DNA from: Aquirufa aurantiipilula
GTDB lineage: Bacteria; Bacteroidota; Bacteroidia; Cytophagales; Spirosomataceae
Length of the DNA: 64,000 nt
Direction of reading: 5' to 3'
Assembly (NCBI RefSeq): GCF_019923745.1
Contig: NZ_JAANOG010000008.1
Location: forward strand, 1 to 64,000
The position numbers were made by a program, and so were the translations under genes. The notes below the pieces were generated by a model, which did not search any database, was not told the origin of the DNA, and worked only from the letters and a program-made list of their open reading frames with translations. Each line of letters opens with the position of its first letter. Position 1 is the first letter of the stretch. Below are positions 7,291-20,592 of the stretch, piece by piece.

Positions 7291-8241
7291 ATGGAAGAAA
7301 ACTACATTTCTGGACCCGCGCGTTGGTTTGGTCTTTTTTCGAAGTTGCTTAGCTTATTTGGATTTTTTCTGCTTGGAAGCTTTTTAGGGCAGTTTTTGGG
7401 TCTAGTAGCGGTAGTTTTAATCATGGAATTTCCTTCCACTAATGTGGCAGAATTTCAAAAATTACTTCTGGATTTTATGGCTAATCCAGAAAAATACCAA
7501 GGAGCATTTAAAGGAATCATGGCATTGCAGTGGTTTGTGTCATTATTTACATTTGTAGGAGGCTCATGGGCTTATTTGAAATTTATTGAAAAACGCAGTT
7601 TATATGATTTAAGTCCATTGGAAGCTCCTTCTTGGCGTATTTTTTCCTGGGCTATTATTGCCTTATTGGTTTCCATTCCTTTGATGGAATACATTATTCA
7701 ATGGAATCAATCCATTGTGCTTCCTGCAGGTTATGAAGAAGTGGAGGCTTGGATGAGATCTTCGGAAGATAATATGGCCCGACTAACCAAGTTTTTATTG
7801 CATTTTGAAACACCACTGGATTTTGTGACAGCATTAGCTGTGATTGCGGGAATGGCGGCTATTGGAGAAGAATTGTTTTTCCGTGGTGTATTGCAAAATT
7901 TGTTTGAGCGGTATTTAGTGAATGTGCATGTGGCTGTTTGGTTATCTGCAGCTATTTTTAGTTTCATACATTTTCAGTTTTATGGGTTCTTGCCAAGGAT
8001 GTTATTGGGTGCCTTTTTTGGGTATTTATACATCTGGTTTAGAAATATTTGGTTGCCGATTTTAGCCCATTTTTTTAACAATGCTTGGACATTGACCTTA
8101 TCCTATTTGTATCAAGAAAAACTGATAGATTTAGATCCTGAGCAAGTTGGAGAGATGATCCCATTATGGTCAGCCGCTGTTTCATTGATGTTCCTTATTT
8201 ATTATATTCGTTTAATGTATCAACAAAGGGAGGAATTATGA
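7291..8241 (+). CDS. CPBP family intramembrane glutamic endopeptidase
   Basis: Polytopic membrane protease of the CAAX/Abi (CPBP) family, with about eight hydrophobic helices in 316 residues. All three active-site motifs are visible: EELFFR (glutamate pair and arginine, near residue 195), FSFIHFQ (FxxxH, near 228) and AHFFNNAW (HxxxN, near 262). Substrate unknown; family members process prenylated proteins or act in bacteriocin immunity elsewhere. The stop overlaps the start of the next gene (ATGA), so it is in an operon with the DUF2007 gene and cdsA. Confidence 0.88.
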   Translation: MEENYISGPARWFGLFSKLLSLFGFFLLGSFLGQFLGLVAVVLIMEFPSTNVAEFQKLLLDFMANPEKYQGAFKGIMALQWFVSLFTFVGGSWAYLKFIEKRSLYDLSPLEAPSWRIFSWAIIALLVSIPLMEYIIQWNQSIVLPAGYEEVEAWMRSSEDNMARLTKFLLHFETPLDFVTALAVIAGMAAIGEELFFRGVLQNLFERYLVNVHVAVWLSAAIFSFIHFQFYGFLPRMLLGAFFGYLYIWFRNIWLPILAHFFNNAWTLTLSYLYQEKLIDLDPEQVGEMIPLWSAAVSLMFLIYYIRLMYQQREEL

Positions 8242-9342: not shown

Positions 9343-10068
9343 ATGAAAATTTGCAAACGAGTCATATTGGGACTTTTCTTTTTAGTTGCATGTGTTAGCC
9401 AAGATCTTTTGGCTCAAGGGCAGGATAAAACGGTGTTATTTCTTGGAAGGGTAGTAACTGCTACCAAAGCGGAGGATTTACCATTGGCTTATGTATATAA
9501 CCCAAAGGCTGGCCGTGGGGCCTTGAGTGACAATTTTGGTATGGTAGAGATGTATGTCTTTCCTGGAGATAGTTTGGTGTTTACCTATGTGGGTTATCAG
9601 AAAAAATATTACATCATTCCTAAAAATACAGATCAAGTACATCGAGCTATCATTTCTTTATCGGAAGAATCTAAAATTTTGTCTGAAGTAAAGGTTTTTC
9701 CGCATAGTTCAGAAGAAGAGTTCAAACAAGCATTCTTAAATATGCGCCTTCGAGATGAAAAACAACGAGGGATTTTAGCTAATAATTTGGAACAATCGAA
9801 GCTGAATGTTTTTGCTTTACAAGCAGGGATGGGGGCCTCCTCCAATTTTAGAAATTTTTCAGATCAAATGGTTTCTGCTCAGGCGAATAAAACTTTTTAT
9901 GCTAGTCCAATTTTGTCACTTACCAATCCTTTTGCTTGGATTAATTTCATTCAATCCATTAAAAATGGCGATTTGAAGAAGAAAGAATGGAAGAAAGCCT
10001 ATGAATTTTTGCCAAAGGAAAATATCTCTAGACAGCAGTTTTTGAGGGAGACCAATACCAATAAGTAG
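9343..10068 (+). CDS. Exported protein with carboxypeptidase-regulatory-like (CarboxypepD_reg) domain
   Basis: A signal peptide (hydrophobic core FFLVACVSQDLLAQG) is followed by a beta-sandwich domain at about residues 30-105: FLGRVVTATKAEDLPLAYV, then GRGALSDNFGMVEM and PGDSLVFTYVGYQKK, the pattern found at the N-terminus of many TonB-linked proteins. There is no barrel; the remaining ~130 residues are charged, and I recognise no family. Located in the periplasm or on the envelope. Function unknown. It ends 2 bases before the end of the convergent TonB receptor gene. Confidence 0.7.
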   Translation: MKICKRVILGLFFLVACVSQDLLAQGQDKTVLFLGRVVTATKAEDLPLAYVYNPKAGRGALSDNFGMVEMYVFPGDSLVFTYVGYQKKYYIIPKNTDQVHRAIISLSEESKILSEVKVFPHSSEEEFKQAFLNMRLRDEKQRGILANNLEQSKLNVFALQAGMGASSNFRNFSDQMVSAQANKTFYASPILSLTNPFAWINFIQSIKNGDLKKKEWKKAYEFLPKENISRQQFLRETNTNK

Positions 10069-10070
10069 GA

Positions 10071-12182
10071 TTACCACCTCATCTGTACTCCTACGTAAAT
10101 AATTCTTTTCTGAAAATATTCTTGGAAGGACTGTTGATAATCCCAGTTATAATTGATGGATTTAACATTGTCACGGTTTAATACATTACTAATCGATATA
10201 TATGTAATCCAAGATAGCTGATTTGATTTATGGAACATTTTACTGAGCATAGCATCTATTCGCATATAAGGTGATAAATTATCTGAGGAAAGGGAATCAA
10301 ATTGAGGAACATAAACTTGTAATTCTGAGGAAAATGCTGATGCTAATAATGGTCTATAATAATTCCCCATCCTTATTAAACTGCTTAAACTAAGGTCCAC
10401 CCATTTCCACTTCCATTGTGAGTTTGTTCGTAAGAAGTAAGGGATTTGGTAGGGAGAGTGTTGAGTTATAGTCCCAATTTTCATTTGACTCCAGTGGCTA
10501 CCTAAACTCCATTCATGTTTGGATTTTGATGTAACTAAACTGAAGTTACATTCTGCTCCAAATGCTTCTATCGTATAATGGAGAGATTTTTCCGTTTTGT
10601 AAAAAGTATGTAAACTCCATTTTTGTAGTTCCTTTTCCTGGACTAAATCAAAGGAAACCTGTTGACTTGTTACTATGGAATACTCATTTTCTGGGGTATA
10701 TAAGCTAGCAATTTGTTTACTCCATGCTAGATTAAGGTATTTTTCCAGCTCATGAAGATACCATCGAGTATGGATTTGATGGGTAAACCGCCAATCAGAT
10801 ATAGATGGAAAATGAGTCAGCTTAACTGCGAATCCCATTCTAAATGGCTTAGAAAATGCATAATTGTTGGATAGAAATAATTCCTGTTGAGAAAGACTGG
10901 GAGTGTTTGAAAACAGAATAACAGGTGATTGTGGACGGTAATCAAAGCTATAAATAGGTCTTCTGATTTGATATGAAGTTTGAGATTGAAACCATTGATA
11001 GCCCGTTTTAATGGTCCAGTTTTCCTGAGGAAAAAGTTGTAGGTCAATTCCGCTGAAGAGTTGAACTGATTTTGGGTGGTAGGCATAATTGCCAGTGCTA
11101 TCATGTTGAGTGGATTCATGAAGTCCAAATTTTAATGTCCACTGTGCATGTTCTTGCAGTTTAGATAGATTGAGGGTCTGAATGTGCCTATTTTTTTGAT
11201 ATTCAAAAGGACCAGCAAAAGAAGGATGTCTAAATTGACTACTATATTTTTCAATCATAAGGAGGCTGAATATTTTGAATCTCCATAAATTTTTAGTTTG
11301 AAAAAAAGCATTTAGGCCCCAGTCACTTTCGTTAAATTGTGGTAAATCTTGTAGAGAGGTGGGATTAAATGATTTTAATAAGGGGCTGAATTGATGATGG
11401 CCAAATATGCTAATTCCATTTTTATCTTTTGCCCATGGAGTCCAATGTATACCTGCTTGTCCAAGGCTAAGATCTATTTCCATGTTTTGCTTGCTGAATG
11501 ATTCATTGCTTTGAATTTGTACTACTCCCGTGCTAGCATTTAGTAGTTCTAAAGGAGGGTTACTTGGAAAAATAAGTAAGTCTTTGATGGAATTGATTGG
11601 AATTAGACTGAAAGTGCCCAAACTGGACATTTGGGTGAATTTAATGGGTTCTGGAATGGGTATATCGTTGAGGTATATTTGAGTTAATTGGGGATTACTT
11701 CCTCTAAAACTTATGGAGGCAGATTCACCAAAGGGGCTTGCTGCTGAGGTGGATTGAACCGCTAAAAGGGGGTCGGCCTTGGAGGATGCATTGACTACAA
11801 CATCTAAAAAATTGATTTTTTGGTTAACAAAATCTTCTGACATTGGAACACTAGCCTTTACTTTTACTTCCGCGAGGGCATTGGGTTTATCTAATGTTAA
11901 TTGTATTTCTAAATCCTTATTATACTGGATCGGTATATATTTTTGTTTATAACCTATCATGGAAACAAGTAGGGTATCAGGTAGGCCTTTGCTTAGTTTT
12001 GAAAATTGAAATGTCCCCGTCGAATCGCTGAGTAAACTAAGTTTATTATGAATTAAAAGTAGACTTACATTTTCTAAATAGGTTTGATGGTAGGCATCCA
12101 TAACTCTCCCTCTTAGCTGAGTTTGAGCTATTGAACAGGTTGAAATACCAATGAAAAATATTAGTAAGTACTTTATTTTCAT
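10071..12182 (-). CDS. TonB-dependent receptor, last gene of the TOMM operon
   Basis: Outer-membrane beta-barrel of 703 residues. A signal peptide (MKIKYLLIFFIGISTCSIAQ) precedes a CarboxypepD_reg-like domain at ~22-105 and a plug domain at ~120-240 containing SASISFRGSNPQLTQIYLNDIPIP. A barrel of alternating aromatic strands follows, ending ...YVGVQMRW. The ATG at 12182 overlaps the stop of the M50 gene (ATGA), so the two are translationally coupled. An earlier in-frame start inside the M50 gene adds 17 residues that spoil the signal peptide. Placement in the azole-peptide operon suggests the receptor handles the modified peptide or a complex of it; that is inference. It is shorter than SusC proteins and has no SusD partner. 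Confidence 0.85.
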   Translation of the reverse strand: MKIKYLLIFFIGISTCSIAQTQLRGRVMDAYHQTYLENVSLLLIHNKLSLLSDSTGTFQFSKLSKGLPDTLLVSMIGYKQKYIPIQYNKDLEIQLTLDKPNALAEVKVKASVPMSEDFVNQKINFLDVVVNASSKADPLLAVQSTSAASPFGESASISFRGSNPQLTQIYLNDIPIPEPIKFTQMSSLGTFSLIPINSIKDLLIFPSNPPLELLNASTGVVQIQSNESFSKQNMEIDLSLGQAGIHWTPWAKDKNGISIFGHHQFSPLLKSFNPTSLQDLPQFNESDWGLNAFFQTKNLWRFKIFSLLMIEKYSSQFRHPSFAGPFEYQKNRHIQTLNLSKLQEHAQWTLKFGLHESTQHDSTGNYAYHPKSVQLFSGIDLQLFPQENWTIKTGYQWFQSQTSYQIRRPIYSFDYRPQSPVILFSNTPSLSQQELFLSNNYAFSKPFRMGFAVKLTHFPSISDWRFTHQIHTRWYLHELEKYLNLAWSKQIASLYTPENEYSIVTSQQVSFDLVQEKELQKWSLHTFYKTEKSLHYTIEAFGAECNFSLVTSKSKHEWSLGSHWSQMKIGTITQHSPYQIPYFLRTNSQWKWKWVDLSLSSLIRMGNYYRPLLASAFSSELQVYVPQFDSLSSDNLSPYMRIDAMLSKMFHKSNQLSWITYISISNVLNRDNVKSINYNWDYQQSFQEYFQKRIIYVGVQMRW

Positions 12183-13342
12183 GGTATGATGCTGATGAAA
12201 TATGGGACAATAATCCAAAGTGCCAATAGGCAATAATAGGCAGAAATAAAGCCGTAACTCATTATGATAAATGAGCCATATAAATAATCCTTAGCAGTTA
12301 ATTCGATGGATTCAATTCGGAATAATACGGATTTACACTTTTTGAGGGATCTACTTGCTTCATGGAATAGAGCCGGCTCATGCAAAAATTCGGATAGTAG
12401 AAAATATCCATCGGTACCTGGGATAAAGGGAACTGCATTAAAGACTATTCGAAATGCGATGAAGCACTGTAAAAATTGCCAATGTGAGAACCAAATTTTA
12501 TCCATTTCCCAATTCAAGAGTATATTAATCCCCAGTACTAATGAAATATCTAGGATTATTCCTGCTAATATGACTTGAATGCGATGTTTGTGATTATCCC
12601 AAAAATGAAGGGAATTCGTATTGATGTGAACAAATGGAATGAAGCCTAGAACCAGAGAAAATCCCAAATCAGCGACTAAGCCTCCGTACCTCAAATAGAT
12701 CAGATAGTGAGCAAATTCGTGTAAAAAAGTAGAAGAGAGAAGCCCTAAAATTAAAAAGGGGATTAGATAGGGGCTACTCAATAATTCAAATTCAAGCCAA
12801 TGTTCTATGAATGTAGGATGAAATGCCAATTGACCTATTCCCAAAATAATAAGTAACAAAGAAGCAATACTACTTAGGTTTTGTACCCATGCGTTTTTGG
12901 CCCATTTTTCCATCCATGTTTTTTCTAAAGGGATTTTTGCAATTTTGAAAAATCGTAGATTACCTCTTCCAATAAATTCAATGGTGATATTTAAAAAGGA
13001 AAACAGCTGAGTTACAGCCAATTTCCAAGCTGTGATATTTTGTGTGATCTTTTTGTTTTTTTGATTTTGGTAGGCTTCCAAGGCATCTTCATGCATCAAC
13101 AATTCGATTTCCTGTGAATACTGAATTAATTGATTTAGTATAGCTAAGTCAGCATCATAACTTTGCTTTATATATGCCAAGGTTTTGTTTTCATCTCGAT
13201 TATTTACTAGGTGAGAAAGTATTTCCCATTCACATTGACTGATTTGAATCAACATGTCTTTCCAATTGTGTTTGAAATAGAGGTCATCGGTGCTCTCCTT
13301 AGCATAAATGAGTTTAAAATCTGGATTAATGACATAGTTCAT
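12179..13342 (-). CDS. M50 family membrane zinc metalloprotease (site-2-protease-like)
   Basis: 387-residue polytopic membrane protein. HEFAH at 208-212 is the zinc-binding HExxH, and NAVPFIPGTDGY at 302-313 gives the second S2P motif with the metal-ligand aspartate D311. Residues 1-85 are soluble and look like a PqqD-type winged helix (ILSHLVNNRD... AILNQLIQYSQEIELL), as in the 'putative peptide zinc metalloprotease' proteins found in RiPP clusters. Likely roles are leader removal, export or immunity for the azole peptide; the sequence cannot decide. The start lies 2 bases after the SagB stop and its end overlaps the receptor gene. Confidence 0.85.
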   Translation of the reverse strand: MNYVINPDFKLIYAKESTDDLYFKHNWKDMLIQISQCEWEILSHLVNNRDENKTLAYIKQSYDADLAILNQLIQYSQEIELLMHEDALEAYQNQKNKKITQNITAWKLAVTQLFSFLNITIEFIGRGNLRFFKIAKIPLEKTWMEKWAKNAWVQNLSSIASLLLIILGIGQLAFHPTFIEHWLEFELLSSPYLIPFLILGLLSSTFLHEFAHYLIYLRYGGLVADLGFSLVLGFIPFVHINTNSLHFWDNHKHRIQVILAGIILDISLVLGINILLNWEMDKIWFSHWQFLQCFIAFRIVFNAVPFIPGTDGYFLLSEFLHEPALFHEASRSLKKCKSVLFRIESIELTAKDYLYGSFIIMSYGFISAYYCLLALWIIVPYFISIIP

Positions 13343-13344
13343 AG

Positions 13345-14175
13345 TTATTTGCCTAGAGATAAAGCTAAAAGAGTAATCTGACTCGGATTTTGGTATGAAA
13401 TCAATTGAGCAAGTGCTTCATCATTGAATCCACCTATGGCACAAGTTCTCATGGCTAGGGATCCACTGGCTAAATACATGGATTGAACAATTTCACCGGC
13501 TTCGATCATGGCCCATCGAATACCCCGATCAAGGTATTTAAAACAGGATCTTTCAAGTTCTGCCCCCAGGACCATAAATGCACTTGAATTGCTATAATCG
13601 ATATCATTTTTTTGCTCAGCAAATAGTGTGGTATTCAAGGCAACTTTTAATTCTTCGCGATCCTTAAAAGCATGTATTAATTTGAGTTTCGAAGAGAATA
13701 GGTCATATAAGAATACTCCTAAAGGAAGCTCTTCTATCAGTTGATTGATTACATATACATCAATTGGATATAAACCTCCACCCGATGGGATATTTCTTCG
13801 AGGAGGGATCAATAACAATGGGTCAAATCGCTGAGTTATGGAATAACTTAAATACAAAAATTGAGAAAGATCCTGTAAGGAGAGTTTGTTATCTGGGTCA
13901 TAATTTCTTTGACTGCTTCTTTCTTGATTTAATTGATTCAATGCCTTCGCCAATGGTGGTAAAGGGGTATTGATTGCTAAATCATATTCCTCACAGAAAC
14001 CTAATTCTATACTATGATGACTAATATTTCTCATGAAATAGTCACTGGACATCACTGCATTCAGGCGTTCGCTGTACTCCTTGGCCTGGTAACTATATAA
14101 TTTACTATGTTCCAGGAAGTCGTATGAGATATCTGAAATACAAGGTTCAAATAATAGATTTCGAGTTTTGGCCAT
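13345..14175 (-). CDS. SagB-type azoline dehydrogenase (nitroreductase fold)
   Basis: FMN-dependent oxidase that in TOMM pathways turns thiazolines/oxazolines into aromatic thiazoles/oxazoles. Signature segments: SSQRNYD (88-93, start of the FMN site), PPRRNIPSGGGLYPIDVYV (124-142) and DRGIRWAMIEAGEIVQSMYL (216-235) followed by TCAIGGFND. These match the SagB/ThcOx family rather than ordinary nitroreductases. At 276 residues it lacks long N-terminal extensions. It lies between the TPR gene (4-base gap) and the M50 gene (2-base gap). Its presence implies that at least part of the product carries aromatic azoles. Confidence 0.88.
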   Translation of the reverse strand: MAKTRNLLFEPCISDISYDFLEHSKLYSYQAKEYSERLNAVMSSDYFMRNISHHSIELGFCEEYDLAINTPLPPLAKALNQLNQERSSQRNYDPDNKLSLQDLSQFLYLSYSITQRFDPLLLIPPRRNIPSGGGLYPIDVYVINQLIEELPLGVFLYDLFSSKLKLIHAFKDREELKVALNTTLFAEQKNDIDYSNSSAFMVLGAELERSCFKYLDRGIRWAMIEAGEIVQSMYLASGSLAMRTCAIGGFNDEALAQLISYQNPSQITLLALSLGK

Positions 14176-14179
14176 GGTT

Positions 14180-14899
14180 CTAAAGTTTATACTGATGGAA
14201 TAAATTATTCTCAGGGAATTTGCTTTTAGCCTCTTGTAGATAATGTTGAGCTTTGGCTTTCTGATTCTCTTCTTTAAAAAATCGGATTAGAAATAAATAG
14301 GATTCTGGGATACCCCATTGAGGATCTTTGGAATTTTCGACCACGGTAGATGCTAATGAAATAGCTTTGATGAGATTGGATTCCACTAGTTTACGCCCTC
14401 CGTACATTTTGGGAGTATAAAAATCATATATAGCTAAGGCATAATATGCTCTTGGATTTTTAGGATTTAAATCAATGGCCCTTTCTGCTAATCTTCCAAC
14501 TTTTCCTGCTTTGATAGGCAATAAGAAAACATTGGTAAAATTGAGCTTCAGTCCATCTATCAAGGATTGTAATGCTAAAGTTTCCGAATTGGGTTTCGTA
14601 ATTTTACCTATCATGGAGGAAGCTTGCTCGAGGGATTGTTGGGCTTTTTTCTCTTCAGTTGAATTCGATAATTTATAATTGAAGTAATCCATGTAATGAG
14701 CATAGGCATTCCAGTACAAATAGTAATACTCGTTGCTTGGATGGTTATTCATGTAAGTGATGATTTTTTGTAGACTATCCTTATGTGTTTTCCATGATAT
14801 TTTTTGAACCTCGTGTACTATATTTTCCATGTTTCCCTGTGCCAAACACAAGACAGGTAATAATAAAGTTGCTATAAGGAGTATTATTCGTTTTTTCAT
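14180..14899 (-). CDS. Exported TPR-like protein in the TOMM operon
   Basis: 239 residues with a signal peptide (IILLIATLLLPVLCLAQG). The rest is helical; AERAIDLNPKNPRAYYALAIYDF followed by TPKMYGGRK and a final helix pair (ESYLFLIRFFKEENQKAKAQHYLQEAKSKFPEN) resemble tetratricopeptide repeats. It should be periplasmic, an odd place for a protein encoded between the cytoplasmic cyclodehydratase (3-base gap) and dehydrogenase (4-base gap). I do not recognise it as a known TOMM component. Possible roles are a scaffold, a carrier of the product to the receptor, or immunity. Confidence 0.72.
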   Translation of the reverse strand: MKKRIILLIATLLLPVLCLAQGNMENIVHEVQKISWKTHKDSLQKIITYMNNHPSNEYYYLYWNAYAHYMDYFNYKLSNSTEEKKAQQSLEQASSMIGKITKPNSETLALQSLIDGLKLNFTNVFLLPIKAGKVGRLAERAIDLNPKNPRAYYALAIYDFYTPKMYGGRKLVESNLIKAISLASTVVENSKDPQWGIPESYLFLIRFFKEENQKAKAQHYLQEAKSKFPENNLFHQYKL

Positions 14900-14902
14900 G
14901 AT

Positions 14903-16171
14903 TTATGGGAAAGGGTGTGGATATGTTAGAAATAGATTTTCATTCGGTTCTGCCCTTAGGTATTTTAAAAAGGGTTGCCGATGTACTCCTGTTAATAAAT
15001 TCCAATGAGGTACAATTACTCGGACTACTTCCATACCCTGAGATTGAACATCCTCAGTACTTAATGGAACAACTAATATGTGGTTTAAGTCCAGTTGATT
15101 TATTTCATTCCAAGATTGAATTTTAGGTTTAATTCGTTCATTTTCAGGGAAATGAGATTCTGTGCTTAGAGCTGCTTGGAGAATAGCGGATTTTTTTCTC
15201 CATTGGGGAAAACGATTGTAGAATGCAAAATGCTTGTCAAAACTATTAATGCTGTCAAAGCCTGGCAAATTATCTATCCATTCTTCTGGTTTTTGACTTA
15301 AACCAATGGCATATTCAATTCCTTGATAGGCTTCTAGGCACGCTTTGATGATGGATTCTTCTTTGCTAAATCGACAGGCGCAACCCATCGATTGGAAAAG
15401 TTGTCCTTTGTATGGGAAAAAAAGTACAACAACATGCGTTTCTATAGGACTTAAGGGGGATAAATCGAAAAGCTTTATTTGCACTCGATTATTATCAAAT
15501 AATTGCTTGATTTTAGGGTGTTCGAAAGATGCTAAGACTTCTTTTTGGTTTAACATCGGGATATGCTTGATCCAATGATCTTGCCGATACCAGAACTCTG
15601 CAAATACATTTCTTTCAGCACATTCTAAAAAGCCTCCAACAGTAGCATCATGGATATTTTTGCCCGCCGAAATACCGGTTGAGGTTTGAAGGGCATAATT
15701 CTTTTTACTATCCCAATCGGTATTATGAGGTAAATGCACTGCGAATGCGGGTACCCAAACGGATTGTTGATTATTGACATTTTCACTTTTAATCCAACTT
15801 ATTACGTCATTTGGTTCCCATTTTTGATAGGGGAAATCTAGAGTGTATTGTTCTGGGGCATAAGGAATGAAAGTTTCTACAGGTAAGAAATTTTTATCTT
15901 GACTCCTCATATCAGACTCACTTGCAAAGACTAAATCCTGTATGTCTTGATGAGATGCAGCATACCTCTCTGTCCATTCACCAATGGCCGAATTTGTTGC
16001 TTCGCCTTGGCTGAACCCTATACCTGAGCCTTGAATCATGTAAGTATTGGAGGCCAACATGTCTAGATGTGTTGCTTCAACGTAGCTTTGAAATAGCCCA
16101 GCTGGCAAACACCTTCTGGTGGGTATCTGAAATTGATTTCCGTGGATTAAATCATCTTTAAGTGCTATCAT
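14903..16171 (-). CDS. YcaO-domain TOMM cyclodehydratase (SagD-like)
   Basis: ATP-dependent enzyme that cyclises Cys, Ser and Thr side chains of the precursor onto the peptide backbone, giving azolines. YcaO ATP/Mg motifs are visible: GEATNSAIGEWTERY (56-70) and ISAGKNIHDATVGG with ECAER (183-187). The last five residues are PHPFP (418-422), the PxPxP tail that in studied TOMM YcaO enzymes organises the active site. Length 422 fits a stand-alone D protein that works with a separate E1-like C protein, which is the next gene upstream (15-base gap). The PxPxP separates it from non-cyclase YcaO proteins such as the RimO-associated type. Confidence 0.93.
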   Translation of the reverse strand: MIALKDDLIHGNQFQIPTRRCLPAGLFQSYVEATHLDMLASNTYMIQGSGIGFSQGEATNSAIGEWTERYAASHQDIQDLVFASESDMRSQDKNFLPVETFIPYAPEQYTLDFPYQKWEPNDVISWIKSENVNNQQSVWVPAFAVHLPHNTDWDSKKNYALQTSTGISAGKNIHDATVGGFLECAERNVFAEFWYRQDHWIKHIPMLNQKEVLASFEHPKIKQLFDNNRVQIKLFDLSPLSPIETHVVVLFFPYKGQLFQSMGCACRFSKEESIIKACLEAYQGIEYAIGLSQKPEEWIDNLPGFDSINSFDKHFAFYNRFPQWRKKSAILQAALSTESHFPENERIKPKIQSWNEINQLDLNHILVVPLSTEDVQSQGMEVVRVIVPHWNLLTGVHRQPFLKYLRAEPNENLFLTYPHPFP

Positions 16172-16186
16172 GTTAGTGAAGACGGA

Positions 16187-17053
16187 TTAAACATTGAAGG
16201 TCATGGATTGATTTTTATGACTACAAATAGGACATTGAGGCACTTTTAAAATTTTATACCTCTGTACTTCAATAGGACTACCTTGAACGACAAAACTTTG
16301 TCCAATTAATGGTGAGAATGTTAATCCTGAATTGAAAAACTGTTGCAATTCTTCATGGATAAAATTACTGAGGGCCAAGAAATAGCGTTTTTCTTGAATC
16401 AATGGTGTGTAGACATACTCTTGATTATGCTTTTTCTGAAAGACAGAGAAAGCTTTTGGGTTCTTCAGTTGGACTCGTTTCCGATTGGCATAGCAATTCA
16501 AACATGGACTTAATAATTTGGAAGAAATGATAGGTCCAATCGTGAAAGTTGAACTATCAATTTCCGTATATAAAAGAGGGATTTTAGCCTCATAACTTAA
16601 TTGTGCTAGTTCTTTTATGTTTTTGTGATGTGTAAAAAGAGAACCCACAAATAAGATTACATCTGAATCAATCAAATTATCCTCCAAGATATATTCAAAG
16701 GAAGGCTTACTTACTTGATTCAGTAAGTGGATAAGGGAGCTAGATTGATCTGATTGCTTTGCATCTACGAGTACATGGATTTTTACTTTTTGAGGACTTT
16801 GGGTCTGTTGGATTACTTGTTTTTCCTTCAACCAGTCGAATAATTCTTGAAAAACTTCAAAATCATCTCCAAAATCCTCCTTGTGTTTTTCATAAATGTG
16901 ACTTATGGAGTCCTCTTGCTGAATTCCTTGAAGTATTTGTTTGATCAAGGGAGTTGATTCACCTTGTATTTCTATTAAATTTTGATCTCCGTTTACGATG
17001 AATAGAGTATCCGGACCACAAAATATGGCTTGGTGGGGTATCGTAGTTTTCAT
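16187..17053 (-). CDS. TOMM leader-binding E1-like protein (SagC-like)
   Basis: Partner of the YcaO enzyme that recognises the precursor leader and presents the core. Residues ~8-82 look like a RiPP recognition element (PqqD-like winged helix: LIEIQGESTPLIKQILQGI ... FQELFDWLKEKQVI). Residues ~90-180 are a degenerate ThiF/E1 fold without an obvious ATP site. Two CxxC pairs, CLNC (184-187) and CPIC (274-277), form the structural zinc site typical of this family. At 288 residues it is somewhat shorter than SagC. It begins 56 bases downstream of the precursor gene, just after the hairpin at 17075-17103. Confidence 0.87.
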   Translation of the reverse strand: MKTTIPHQAIFCGPDTLFIVNGDQNLIEIQGESTPLIKQILQGIQQEDSISHIYEKHKEDFGDDFEVFQELFDWLKEKQVIQQTQSPQKVKIHVLVDAKQSDQSSSLIHLLNQVSKPSFEYILEDNLIDSDVILFVGSLFTHHKNIKELAQLSYEAKIPLLYTEIDSSTFTIGPIISSKLLSPCLNCYANRKRVQLKNPKAFSVFQKKHNQEYVYTPLIQEKRYFLALSNFIHEELQQFFNSGLTFSPLIGQSFVVQGSPIEVQRYKILKVPQCPICSHKNQSMTFNV

Positions 17054-17074
17054 GTGTGGGTAGGTATTTAGGTA

Positions 17075-17103
17075 AAGCGGGTGGAGAAAATCTCCACCCG
17101 TTT
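17075..17103 (-). terminator. Hairpin between precursor and biosynthesis genes (attenuator candidate)
   Basis: A perfect 10-bp GC-rich stem, CGGGTGGAGA/TCTCCACCCG, with a three-base centre, lies 10 bases after the precursor stop and 25 before the E1 start. The T-run on the transcribed strand is short (CTTTACC), so it probably acts as a partial terminator or 3' stabiliser, giving more precursor than enzyme mRNA. The streptolysin S operon has a terminator in the same place, between sagA and sagB. Confidence 0.75.
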
Positions 17104-17109
17104 ATCCAA

Positions 17110-17262
17110 TTAGGCTGTCGCTTCTGCTGGCGCATCATTGTTTGATTTGCAGCAAGTACATGTACAAGTGCAAGTCGAACCAGCAAGTGCTACCTCGTTT
17201 GATCCTCCGAAAGAAGCATCTCTGTTTTCTAAAACAGTCAGGGTTAATTTTAACTTTTTCAT
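17110..17262 (-). CDS. TOMM (azol(in)e peptide) precursor, 50 residues
   Basis: Small gene starting at the ATG at 17262. The leader starts MKKLKLTLTVLENRD, a basic-hydrophobic start like that of other Bacteroidota RiPP leaders, and carries a Gly-Gly at 19-20. Residues 29-38 are STCTCTCTCC: ten consecutive residues that can all be cyclised (five Cys, four Thr, one Ser), followed by KSNND and an Ala/Glu-rich tail. Leader cleavage could fall after G20 or after the ALAG at 25-28. The gene opens the operon that encodes the E1-like, YcaO and SagB proteins needed to make azoles, so the assignment rests on both composition and context. The mature structure is unknown. Confidence 0.9.
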   Translation of the reverse strand: MKKLKLTLTVLENRDASFGGSNEVALAGSTCTCTCTCCKSNNDAPAEATA

Positions 17263-17460
17263 TGTGATTAGGGTTAGGTTGATTGAATTATTTCGAAGGC
17301 AATTTCAAAAAAATGTCCTAATTACAAAAGGCTTGTCAATGCGGGGGGATTACATTATCAGTTTGTAGATAATTTTAAATAAGAAATGGGCTTAGGCGTC
17401 CAATTGAGATACAAATTTGATTTTTGACAAGTTTTGAGATTCCAAAAACTTGATTAAAAT
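17263..17460. other. Upstream region of the TOMM operon
   Basis: This 198-base AT-rich gap between pgeF and the precursor gene must hold the operon promoter. On the minus strand a TTGACA-like element (near 17335) is followed by a T-rich stretch, but no perfect TAnnTTTG box is present. A hairpin at 17428-17452 (CAAGTTTT/AAAACTTG, 9-base loop) lies just past the pgeF stop and could be a weak terminator for pgeF. Confidence 0.4.
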
Positions 17461-18207
17461 TTATGACTGAAATCCGGCAAAAGCTAACATTCTGCCAGTC
17501 AATCCCTGTTCTTTTCTATGAGAAAAAAAATGTTCATTGTGTTCAACAGTACACCAGGGAGCAATTTCAATTTGTGTAATGCCTGATTTCCTTAATTGTA
17601 AAGCATGGTGTTTTTTTAAATCCACATGCCATTTGTTATATAGCTTTTGTTTACAAGACTCTGGAAATTTTTCAGCTACTTCATCACCCACTTCAAAATG
17701 TTGAACACTGATGCATGGGCCAATATAAGCCAATAAAATCTCTGGTTTACTATGGTATTTACTAATCAATAAATCAGCAGTTTTAGGTACAATTCCCAAG
17801 ATAGACCCTTTCCAACCCGCATGAACTGCTGCCGTAATTTTCTGTTCGGGGTCCACTAAGAGAATTGGGCAACAATCTGCAATGCCTACTGCTGAAAATA
17901 TATTCACCTGAGTGCTGATAATGGCATCATATCCATTCTCATAATCAGGTAGTTGGCATTCCCAAATATGATCTTGATGCGTTTGAAATGACCTAGCTAA
18001 TTGACTTGCGTCTATGCCTAAGGATTGGCATAAAAGATTAATATTTTCCTGAATGGTTTCAACTTGGTCGTTGGTATGTACTCCTAGATTTAGTGAATGA
18101 TAAGGAGCTTGACTTTTTCCACCGTGGCGGGTGCTGACACCCGCCACTAAAGATGGAATATGTTTAAAAATGTCCGGTTTAAGGTATAAATCGGATGGTT
18201 TAATCAT
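17461..18207 (-). CDS. pgeF: Peptidoglycan editing factor (YfiH/laccase-domain family)
   Basis: Cytoplasmic amidase family that removes wrongly incorporated amino acids from peptidoglycan precursors; older annotation calls it polyphenol oxidase or laccase. Conserved metal-binding segments are GVSTRHGG near residue 24, SFQTHQDH, GIADCCPILLVD and AAVHAGWKGS, then IGPCISVQHFEVG and a C-terminal NEHFFSHRKE. Length 248 is normal. Its start overlaps the end of the gluconate dehydrogenase-subunit-like gene by 8 bases, so it is probably the last member of that minus-strand operon. Confidence 0.93.
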   Translation of the reverse strand: MIKPSDLYLKPDIFKHIPSLVAGVSTRHGGKSQAPYHSLNLGVHTNDQVETIQENINLLCQSLGIDASQLARSFQTHQDHIWECQLPDYENGYDAIISTQVNIFSAVGIADCCPILLVDPEQKITAAVHAGWKGSILGIVPKTADLLISKYHSKPEILLAYIGPCISVQHFEVGDEVAEKFPESCKQKLYNKWHVDLKKHHALQLRKSGITQIEIAPWCTVEHNEHFFSHRKEQGLTGRMLAFAGFQS

Positions 18208-18838
18208 CGTAAGATAATCCGTATTGCTTTAATACATCATCTGGTACCCCTTTCCATTCGTTGGGAGTATTTCCTTTATACGCCAAATCATCTAATCCAA
18301 TTCTAGACGTATAGAATCCAGTTGCTGTCAAGTTTCTCATCAATGTGAAAAAATTCACTCCTTGAGAAAACTGAGGTTTGACCTTTTCAGGATAAGCAAT
18401 GTCTTCCACGATTTCAATACGTTGCTTTGGAGTAATTTCCGTAAATAATTTACTAAAACGACGCTTTGATTCACCATCTAACCATCTCAAACCACCTCGC
18501 ATTGGGGTTTTAAATTCTGGTTTATCTTTTACAATAAACTCAATGAATTTAGTGACACCCGATTGAGAAGCGCTTCCCGATTTGCCATCTGCAGGGATAA
18601 TGATATCCGACAAAATGGTGATAGTGGCTAACTCATGAGCATTTAAGAACTTTTCTGCCATTAATTTGGCATCACGTTCTGCTTCATCCATGGTTCTACC
18701 ATTAGGTACTTTTAAAGGAGCGACTTTTTTAGGGTCTGGTGCGCCTTCTAATGCCTCCATGGCTTTTACTTGTGGATTCAATGCAGCTAAGCCCAATGAA
18801 CTTAAGCCGATATTTTTTAAATAATCTCTTCTTTTCAT
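18200..18838 (-). CDS. Gluconate 2-dehydrogenase subunit 3 family protein
   Basis: 212-residue exported subunit. The N-terminus MKRRDYLKNIGLSSLGLAAL has the twin-arginine-like pattern seen in this family. The helical domain contains FLNAHELATITILSDIIIPADGKSGSA and RGGLRWLDGESKRRF, which are typical. It partners the FAD subunit encoded directly upstream (TAATG overlap at 18838). Together they resemble membrane-associated sugar or alcohol dehydrogenases; a dedicated cytochrome c subunit is not in this operon. Confidence 0.87.
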   Translation of the reverse strand: MKRRDYLKNIGLSSLGLAALNPQVKAMEALEGAPDPKKVAPLKVPNGRTMDEAERDAKLMAEKFLNAHELATITILSDIIIPADGKSGSASQSGVTKFIEFIVKDKPEFKTPMRGGLRWLDGESKRRFSKLFTEITPKQRIEIVEDIAYPEKVKPQFSQGVNFFTLMRNLTATGFYTSRIGLDDLAYKGNTPNEWKGVPDDVLKQYGLSYDD

Positions 18839-20592
18839 TATAAATTGGCTTTTTTACGTTGATCAATAATATATTCGGAAGTACGCATAGAAAGTGCAAG
18901 GATAGTCCATGTAGCATTCTTATCTCCCTGAGAAACGAATGGTGCCGCATCTGCCAAGAACAAGTTCTTCACATCATGTGCCTGGCAATTTGAATTTACG
19001 ACCGAAGTGCTCGCATTATTTCCCATACGCGCTGTTCCTACTTCGTGAATAATACGTCCTGGATCTGCTAAGCCGTAATTGGTATCTGCACCCGGCTTTT
19101 TGCCCATGGCCTTACCACCCATGGCATCAATAATTTGCTCAAAGGTGTCTTGCATGTGTTTTGCCTGCTTGATTTCGTAATCGCTCCATTTGTAATTGAA
19201 GCGTAAAACTGGAATACCATATTTGTCAACCACATTTGGATCAATTTCACAATAGTTATCTTCTCTAGGTACAGGTTCTCCACGACCAGCAAAGCTGACA
19301 TAAGAACCGTAAAAACGACGATAATCTTCTTTCAATGTCGCTCCATATCCACCTGCTGCTTTTTTCAAACCATCACGAGTGAAGTTTTCACGTCCATTTA
19401 ATCCTTCAATTCCCCATCCAAAACCGTAGCTAGGCATACCCATACCACCACCGTATTCGATGTGGTAACCACGTGGAAAGTCTAATTTACTGTTATCGCC
19501 CCACCAAGGAGAGTAAATGTGAGAACCACCTACGCCATCTTCATTGTATGTTTTGCGATCAAATAAGGAAGGAATAATGGCAGAACGAGAAGCTCCTGTT
19601 GAGTCGTTGATGTACTTTCCAACTACCCCACTGGAATTGGCAATACCATTCGGGAAACGAGAACTTTTTGAGTTCAATAATAAACGTGCCGTCTCACCAG
19701 CTGAAGCTGCCAAAACAACAATTTTACCTTTCACTGAATATTCTTGTAATGTACCAGTATGTACATAAGAAACGCCAGTTGCCAAACCAGATATTGGATC
19801 AGTTGTTACTTCTCTAGCCATGGCATATGGCAATAATGTCAAATTACCTGTTGCTGCTGCGGGTTTAACCAATACAGAGGAAGAAGAGAAGTCGGCATAT
19901 GCCTGACAAGCACGAGAACATTGTGCACAGTAGAAACATTGGCCACGCTCATTGTTGATTGGCTTAGTCAAAATCGAAAGACGAGATGGGTAAGTCGGGA
20001 TTCCGATGGCCTTATTCGCTTTCTTAATCATTAATTCATGCAAACGAGCCTTAGGAGGAGGTAAGAAAATTCCATCTGGGTTATTTCTTAGTCCTTCATT
20101 GGTACCAAATACACCAATTAAACGATCTACTTTATCGTAATATGGCTTCATGTCGTCATAGCCAATAGGCCAGTCGTCACCTAAACCGTCTATACTTTTT
20201 CTTTTAAAATCATCAGGTCCAAAACGCAAAGAAATACGGCCCCAGTGGTTGGTTCTACCACCCACCATACGAGATCTGAACCAATCAAATTTGGTTCCTT
20301 CTTTACGGGTATAAGGTTCACCTTCAATATCCCAACCACCATAAGCTGCATCAAAATCACCAAAAGGACGGGTGGTATTTGCACCACGACGAGGCGATTC
20401 ATATGGCCATTTTAATTGGGTAATATTTTTTGGATCAGCGGGGTCATAAGGTTGACCGGCCTCTAATAAACAGACTTTAGCTCCTGCTTTGGTTAGCATA
20501 TGGGCAGCCATACCACCACCAGCACCTGAGCCAACAATCACCACATCAAAAACCTCTTGTTGAGATTTGATGTATATGGAAGAATTAATCAT
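18838..20592 (-). CDS. GMC family FAD-dependent oxidoreductase
   Basis: Large catalytic subunit, 584 residues. The dinucleotide-binding motif VVIVGSGAGGGMAA is near residue 18. A cysteine-rich CFYCAQCSRACQ segment near residue 224 is typical of the gluconate/sugar dehydrogenase type of GMC proteins, and the C-terminal GMC_oxred_C part contains HEVGTARMGNNASTSVVN and the final NATWTILALSMR. No signal peptide is seen, so it likely travels with the Tat-type small subunit encoded next. Substrate is probably a sugar, sugar acid or polyol but cannot be specified. Confidence 0.9.
   Translation of the reverse strand: MINSSIYIKSQQEVFDVVIVGSGAGGGMAAHMLTKAGAKVCLLEAGQPYDPADPKNITQLKWPYESPRRGANTTRPFGDFDAAYGGWDIEGEPYTRKEGTKFDWFRSRMVGGRTNHWGRISLRFGPDDFKRKSIDGLGDDWPIGYDDMKPYYDKVDRLIGVFGTNEGLRNNPDGIFLPPPKARLHELMIKKANKAIGIPTYPSRLSILTKPINNERGQCFYCAQCSRACQAYADFSSSSVLVKPAAATGNLTLLPYAMAREVTTDPISGLATGVSYVHTGTLQEYSVKGKIVVLAASAGETARLLLNSKSSRFPNGIANSSGVVGKYINDSTGASRSAIIPSLFDRKTYNEDGVGGSHIYSPWWGDNSKLDFPRGYHIEYGGGMGMPSYGFGWGIEGLNGRENFTRDGLKKAAGGYGATLKEDYRRFYGSYVSFAGRGEPVPREDNYCEIDPNVVDKYGIPVLRFNYKWSDYEIKQAKHMQDTFEQIIDAMGGKAMGKKPGADTNYGLADPGRIIHEVGTARMGNNASTSVVNSNCQAHDVKNLFLADAAPFVSQGDKNATWTILALSMRTSEYIIDQRKKANL

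Follow-up and report, generated by a model that had tools for sequence, protein, structure and literature searches.

A 64,000-nucleotide stretch of the Aquirufa aurantiipilula genome (positions 1 to 64,000 of contig NZ_JAANOG010000008.1, assembly GCF_019923745.1; hereafter the window) carries seven genes on the minus strand, between positions 10071 and 17262, that have the make-up of a thiazole/oxazole-modified microcin (TOMM) operon. They encode, in order, a precursor peptide, an E1-like protein, a YcaO protein, a HusA-like protein with a tetratricopeptide repeat (TPR) fold, a SagB-family dehydrogenase, an M50 metalloprotease and a TonB-dependent-receptor-like protein. The seven genes, their coordinates, strand and order agree with a preliminary description of this DNA. 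The genes and two associated elements are the following.

17280..17309, minus strand: conserved block upstream of the precursor gene, from an alignment of six loci; putative promoter or operator.
17110..17262, minus strand: precursor peptide, 50 aa; leader with ENRDASFG, core of Gly and STCTCTCTCC, tail KSNNDAPAEATA.
17078..17100, minus strand: 10-bp hairpin between the precursor and E1 genes, from shuffle z-scores and pairing on the alignment; proposed attenuator or mRNA stabiliser.
16187..17053, minus strand: E1-like C protein of a cyclodehydratase, 288 aa, with two CxxC motifs (TIGR03882, PDB match to MusD).
14903..16171, minus strand: YcaO cyclodehydratase (D protein), 422 aa, with C-terminal PHPFP (PF02624, PDB match to MusD).
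14180..14899, minus strand: predicted exported HusA-like (TPR-fold) binding protein, 239 aa (PDB match to 6bqs).
13345..14175, minus strand: SagB-family dehydrogenase (azoline to azole), 276 aa (TIGR03605).
12179..13342, minus strand: M50/site-2-type membrane metalloprotease, 387 aa, with an N-terminal extension of about 150 aa (NF041824, HExxH and NxxPFIPGTDGYF).
10071..12182, minus strand: TonB-dependent-receptor-like outer membrane protein, 703 aa from its ATG (PF13715, Plug).

The precursor and E1 genes are separated by 56 bp, which hold the hairpin. From the E1 gene on, the genes are packed as tightly as first described, with gaps of 15 bp (E1-YcaO), 3 bp (YcaO-TPR), 4 bp (TPR-SagB) and 2 bp (SagB-M50), and the M50 and TonB genes overlap by 4 bp given the ATG at 12182 as the receptor start. 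A start at the TTG at 12233 is unlikely because four of five Aquirufa relatives have an in-frame stop between the position of that TTG and the ATG. Five Aquirufa relatives share this gene order, and five more distant genomes (L014, L046, L048, L052 and L053) have it with changes, indicating that the arrangement is more than chance. Together with the window these form a set of 11 operon-linked clusters. Each of the five distant genomes has the core set and its own Cys-rich precursor. A short Cys-rich peptide is encoded upstream of the E1 gene, on the same strand, in all ten related clusters as in the window.

In TOMM pathways, an E1 protein and a YcaO protein cyclise the precursor and SagB oxidises the rings. 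The YcaO of the window matches PF02624 with 150.5 bits. It scores 152.4 bits against the SagD model TIGR03604, below the cut-off of 219.25, and 70.6 bits against TIGR03266 (McrA thioamidation). A PxPxP C-terminus marks azoline formation in YcaO proteins, and PHPFP is present at this end in all 11 clusters. When a YcaO profile of 11 relatives was searched against the PDB, the azoline-forming MusD (1.9e-33), TruD (6.2e-27) and LynD (1.1e-24) were the best matches, placing the protein with the cyclodehydratases. Other YcaO proteins followed, with MJ1094 at 4.6e-17, McbD at 1.8e-9 and E. coli YcaO at 8.8e-6.

The window E1 falls 0.9 bits short of TIGR03882 (36.0 against a cut-off of 36.9), which the E1 proteins of all four distant relatives scanned pass (40.9-53.4 bits). 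Two CxxC motifs are kept in the seven E1 proteins aligned. Against the PDB the E1 profile finds MusD (8.2e-8) and also TruD across the first CxxC; the second lies in a weak separate segment. The preliminary description had placed a RiPP (ribosomally synthesized and post-translationally modified peptide) recognition element (RRE) in this protein, where none is detectable by sequence: neither Pfam (E up to 10) nor PDB profiles gave a meaningful match. The SagB clears TIGR03605 with 112.4 bits (cut-off 78.4), as do those of the four distant relatives scanned. Family scans found no TfuA match among the operon proteins. With a Cys-rich precursor, an E1-like protein, a YcaO ending in PHPFP and a SagB, the earlier assignment of a complete operon of the TOMM, or linear azol(in)e peptide, type is well supported on sequence grounds, and azol(in)e rings very probably form on the precursor. 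Neither outcome that the preliminary description named as refuting it, homologous clusters lacking a Cys-rich peptide at this position or a YcaO grouping with non-cyclase families, was observed.

The core of the window precursor consists of a Gly and ten contiguous heterocyclizable Cys, Ser and Thr residues (STCTCTCTCC). Across the 11 clusters the precursors are of two types. Type A, found in Aquirufa and L053, has an ENRDxSFG leader and a core of Gly plus ten contiguous Cys/Ser/Thr, and its clusters encode a long M50 protein and no ABC genes. Type B, found in L014, L046, L048 and L052, has an MKxxKLS leader and a core of Cys with some Asn; these clusters carry an ABC ATPase, a membrane protein and a short HExxH protein. 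The longest heterocyclizable runs in the type B precursors are 8, 8, 5 and 4 residues, against 10 in L053. The window precursor does not match the streptolysin S model TIGR03602. Three of the five distant precursors touch it with 19.7-19.8 bits (E 5.5e-4 to 5.9e-4; cut-off 35).

Within Aquirufa the precursor is 98-100% identical across the five relatives, while the other operon proteins are only 54-85% identical (E1 54-75%, YcaO 66-80%, receptor 61-76%). Over 15 pairs the mean ratio of nonsynonymous to synonymous differences (pN/pS) is 0.024 for the precursor and 0.16-0.30 for the other six operon genes, ratios that are rough because synonymous differences in the operon are near saturation (mean pS 0.67-0.76). 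Among the flanking genes four have values of 0.018-0.041 and pgeF has 0.20. The synonymous sites of the precursor do change (pS 0.23-0.53 against the window), so its constancy reflects selection on the peptide. Strong purifying selection thus holds the precursor constant while the remaining operon proteins drift. Within Aquirufa the tail behind the core is conserved as well, a hint that it remains part of the product or directs processing. As the preliminary description proposed, the product would be a poly-thiazole/methyloxazole peptide. For an assumed core STCTCTCTCCKSNNDAPAEATA, whose cleavage site is a guess, the computed [M+H]+ is 2194.818 unmodified and 1994.556 with ten azoles, each azole shifting the mass by -20.026 and each azoline by -18.011. 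A second precursor copy was sought in the genome; the sole match scored 14.8 bits and is broken by stops.

Two elements near the precursor gene may be regulatory. The hairpin 3' of the precursor stop codon folds better than every shuffle in all six species (z -4.5 to -6.2). Pairing extends to 98.3% of the cells of the alignment, compared with 40-60% in slid controls, for a structure that was derived from one of the aligned sequences. Three of the ten pairs are changed on both sides, a number reached by 9 of 500 shuffles; further pair types are no more frequent than in shuffles (390/500). A scan found no T-run after the hairpin, and a consensus scan found neither a classical terminator nor a sigma-70 site near the precursor gene, the upstream block included. 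The hairpin may act as a partial stop or an mRNA shield between the precursor and the enzymes. The 30-base block at 17280-17309 is nearly invariant in the six species within an otherwise variable spacer, has a single match in the window, and is possibly a promoter or operator.

The preliminary description called the product of the fourth gene an exported TPR protein and missed the most telling part of the operon, the identity of this protein. By sequence it is a homologue of HusA, a haemophore of Porphyromonas gingivalis. The only PDB sequence below E 0.1 is 6bqs/6crl (PG_2227), found by phmmer with the window protein alone at 7.4e-6 and with a profile at 1.7e-9; the next match is a designed TPR at 0.38. 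One table row identifies PG_2227 as husA (PMC10913741), in agreement with residue numbering worked out by hand. HusA accommodates both haem and metal-free porphyrins in a hydrophobic groove, and the iron is not ligated; uptake through the TonB receptor HusB is suggested by the authors of that study (PMC6173696). The haem-binding residues of HusA include L123, V124, W130 and Y164 (PMC6173696). Tyr161 of the window protein is equivalent to Y164, and all 11 operon-linked copies have Tyr at this position.

The last gene of the operon encodes the putative receptor. It matches CarbopepD_reg_2 (PF13715) above cut-off with 42 bits and Plug below cut-off (18.7 against 23.9 bits), a threshold passed by the receptors of the three distant relatives scanned (24.7, 29.3 and 30.3 bits). 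In 23 of 24 high-scoring loci the HusA-like gene has a TonB-type gene next to it. The pair is adjacent in ten of the 11 TOMM operons, the receptor gene of L052 being divergent and some kilobases away. The HusA-like profile exceeds 120 bits in only 24 of the 391 genomes of the order (next score 73), and 11 of these hold TOMM genes. In an unrooted receptor tree, ten of the 11 operon-linked receptors and five solo ones lie on one side of a 100/100 branch. With the distant L052 receptor counted as linked, at least four changes of linkage are needed to account for the well-supported branches of the receptor tree, and at least three for those of the HusA-like tree.

Of the haem-synthesis pathway, the two enzymes sought, ferrochelatase and URO-D, are above cut-off in every one of the 11 hosts. 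Haem is therefore probably no required nutrient, and haem auxotrophy was judged unlikely as the reason for the HusA-like protein. Because haem is probably not needed and the operon itself should make a long flat aromatic chain, we favour the operon's own product as the ligand.

The preliminary description had also stressed the lack of an ABC exporter. The operon encodes neither an ABC transporter nor a CaaX protease according to its gene list and family scans, and the statement holds for the sub-type of the window. It fails as a general trait since an ABC pair is present in four of the 11 clusters (L014, L046 and L048, in which the ABC domain was tested, and L052, by eye). There are thus two release layouts, a long M50 without ABC genes and a short M50-like protein with ABC genes. 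The M50 protein of the window has HEFAH and NxxPFIPGTDGYF, and HExxH with NxxPFIPGTDGYF is found in the seven long forms aligned. It scores 13.3 bits against PF02163 (cut-off 27.2), and its best curated match, NF041824 (daptide_HExxH), is at 55.7 bits far below the cut-off of 300. A search of its N-terminus for an RRE gave nothing significant with Pfam (E up to 10), PDB profiles or profile-profile comparisons. By analogy with EpeP, which is thought to cleave and export the epipeptide although its deletion did not abolish production (PMC10885120), the M50 protease probably handles leader cleavage and release at the inner membrane. A Rce1-like gene at 7291-8241, on the opposite strand, was considered as the missing CaaX protease and set aside, as it is also present in all nine operon-less relatives examined.

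Taken as a pathway, the E1-like protein would present the precursor to YcaO, which, with ATP, would cyclise residues of STCTCTCTCC to thiazolines and (methyl)oxazolines. Oxidation of the azolines by SagB would then give a flat chain with at most ten azoles. Leader removal and release of the peptide at the inner membrane would fall to the M50 protease, which would take the role of an ABC exporter. Once outside, the flat product, perhaps carrying a metal that it has captured, would be bound by the HusA-like protein and then taken back in, or sensed, by the TonB receptor. That the product of the operon is a linear polyazole peptide and that a HusA/HusB-like pair deals with it is in our estimate an evenly balanced proposition. 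For the part of it that has the pair act on the operon's own product, we think the case somewhat the stronger one. Inward transport is a little less likely than not, and metal binding by the product is doubtful. Rather unlikely, in our view, is a self-contained ribosomal metallophore or signal system, in which a flat oligo-thiazole/oxazole peptide would be made, released, captured by the HusA-like protein and re-imported via its own TonB receptor; solo HusA-like/TonB pairs would then be receivers exploiting the product of neighbours.

Several observations weigh against this proposal. W130 and L123 of HusA are kept in none of the 11 operon-linked copies, the F80 equivalent, mapped by hand, is Phe in seven of them, and Tyr at the Y164 position is also found in ten of 16 other rows, so this residue marks the family and not the operon. 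The family is wide, with the HusA-like profile matching 164 of the 391 genomes of the order at E 0.001. No TOMM gene was matched in the fetched stretch around 13 of the 24 HusA-like/TonB loci, and the pair may therefore serve another ligand; one of these solo loci, L045, lies at the edge of its contig, and TOMM genes may be missing for that reason. Similarity of the TonB profile to solved receptors is confined to the N-terminal domain and a weak match to the plug. Family scans identified no inner-membrane importer or metal regulator among the operon genes. Iron from haem is a possible purpose of the pair. The azoline-forming McbD also ranks below the thioamidating MJ1094 in the PDB search, which counts against a simple reading of the YcaO.

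Other accounts of the operon are less probable. The product could be a membrane-active polyazole like the cytolysins, with the HusA/TonB pair harvesting haem or other flat nutrients from lysed cells. Gly followed by at least ten heterocyclizable residues is a cytolysin trait (PMC4603692) that the window core and that of L053 share, HusA binds haem (PMC6173696), and three distant precursors touch TIGR03602. However, these matches are well under the cut-off and the window precursor has none, the runs in the four type B precursors are shorter, the operon has no CaaX protease or ABC transporter, and the hosts have late haem-synthesis genes. We find this account improbable and do not file the operon as a cytolysin, though its product may still act like one. 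Dedicated export is a different use for the same proteins: the product would be an antibacterial azole peptide and the TonB-type barrel and HusA-like protein would serve export or self-protection instead of uptake. TonB-related outer membrane proteins have been proposed as exporters at Bacteroidetes graspetide loci (PMC8939145). According to family scans the operon encodes no other outer-membrane exit. The 13 of 24 pairs without biosynthetic genes in the fetched stretch fit a dedicated exporter poorly, and TonB receptors are importers in the cases known to us, so that we give this possibility little weight.

Finally, the YcaO might do other chemistry, such as thioamidation, with the precursor modified differently. 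Its scores, below the SagD cut-off and measurable against the McrA model, and the rank of McbD under MJ1094 agree with this. The PHPFP terminus in every cluster, the discrete E1 partner and SagB, the lead of MusD, TruD and LynD in the PDB and the lack of a TfuA match among the operon proteins make it very improbable.

Compared with known systems, the operon with its proposed polyazole product shares with the cytolysin (streptolysin S type) TOMMs discrete C and D proteins, a dehydrogenase, and a Gly with ten contiguous heterocyclizable residues (PMC4603692). Cytolysin clusters have ABC transporters and a CaaX-like protease (PMC4603692); here an M50 protease, a HusA-like protein and a TonB receptor are found instead, and the precursor differs in having no TIGR03602 match. 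With HusA/HusB of P. gingivalis (PMC6173696) it shares a homologous exported helical binding protein, a neighbouring TonB receptor, likened to HusB by gene neighbourhood alone, and the Y164 equivalent. Unlike that system, the pair here belongs to an operon for peptide biosynthesis, its hosts have late haem-synthesis genes, and W130 and L123 are lost. Daptide and epipeptide clusters (PMC10036551, PMC10885120) also encode an intramembrane M50/site-2 protease. The daptide M50 carries an N-terminal RRE (PMC10036551), whereas none is detectable in that of the operon, and the oxidative decarboxylase, aminotransferase, methyltransferase and radical SAM proteins are unmatched among the proteins of 10071-17262. 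Bacteroidetes graspetide loci are RiPP loci with TPR and SusC/TonB-linked outer membrane proteins as well, but use ATP-grasp chemistry; the excerpt of that paper calls the TPR role unclear and does not name HusA (PMC8939145). Already known are TOMM operons, RiPP clusters with M50 proteases and, close to graspetide loci of Bacteroidetes, TonB or TPR genes (PMC8939145). In literature on TOMM, YcaO, azole or RiPP with TonB, Bacteroidetes or Cytophagales, we found no union of a TOMM operon with HusA-like and TonB genes; the name HusA was outside that scope and subscription literature was mostly uncovered, so this is no proof of absence. A term search of two Aquirufa papers found no mention of antiSMASH, bacteriocins or YcaO.

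To determine how common the operon is, we surveyed related genomes. The precursor is encoded in six of 38 Aquirufa genomes, and the same six carry the YcaO. They are exactly the genomes with a CdsA at least 94% identical to that of the window, forming one subclade. Of the rest, many of which are incomplete assemblies, 31 have a CdsA of 79-83% identity without a precursor, and one has neither. Among the 391 genomes of the order the YcaO profile (A6) finds 20 at E 1e-10, with the 11 clusters above 550 bits; the profile was built from these same clusters, which makes their scores possibly circular, and the informative result is the gap down to the next score, 206. Only the window genome and the L053 genome exceed 210 bits in a sample of 392 genomes from the phylum.

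In nine operon-less Aquirufa loci the border genes of the operon (9343-10068 and pgeF) could be compared. They are direct neighbours in five loci and about 0.35 kb apart in a sixth; L114 has one other gene between them, and for L115 and L116 the first border gene is followed by another gene and the contig stops short of pgeF. As spacing and intervening genes differ, the content of the site varies within Aquirufa and it may be a small hot spot. A 355-aa gene is at the site in L114 (4888-5955) and L115 (5655-6722), whose product by eye resembles a Fic-type protein, and L116 carries yet another gene. Family scans found no recognised mobility gene among the operon proteins, and the window has no tRNA; a mobile element was rejected on these grounds, even though the site content varies. 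An anti-phage defence role was also rejected, as six operon proteins are without a PADLOC match (the precursor was left out of the scan). Just outside the operon, pgeF (17461-18207) diverges like the operon genes, with 72-83% identity; the next two genes outward reach 95-99.7%. A GMC oxidoreductase and its gluconate 2-dehydrogenase subunit 3 partner (18200-20592) border the locus and are up to 99.7% identical across the subclade.

Other loci resemble parts of the operon. L103 (5163-11741), another TOMM-like cluster of the phylum, is loosely similar in layout: YcaO and SagB are followed by an M50-like protein that stays below cut-off and an outer membrane protein of the carboxypeptidase-regulatory/DUF5686 kind, and a possible Cys-containing precursor is present. 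L100 (5553-11922) and L102 (5811-12277) encode precursors of 106 and 102 aa with the common core SCCCTCTPACCCTAAAVIKAA. They also hold E1, YcaO, SagB and a 745- or 735-aa protein, and a 154-aa protein of L100 matches Peptidase_C39/C70. L104 (5518-7118), from a more distant genome, is a TOMM-like cluster in which an apparent ABC pair is immediately followed by two HusA-like proteins (77.8 and 55.6 bits), with no TonB match in the fetched stretch. Next to the solo HusA-like/TonB pairs of L047 (3588-5416), L049, L050 and L051 are genes for a small membrane protein and a winged-helix regulator, the latter assigned to HTH_34 by a test in L047 alone, and the neighbours of the pairs in L055-L058 resemble, by eye, sensor and response-regulator genes.

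If the HusA-like/TonB pair recognises the product of its own operon, this would be a polyazole peptide served by its own capture protein and receptor, and HusA-like proteins would gain a new class of ligand that can be tested. The near-frozen precursor beside drifting enzymes in six species lends itself to studying how cyclodehydratases read leaders. The two release solutions, a long M50 without ABC genes and a short M50-like protein with them, can be compared directly.

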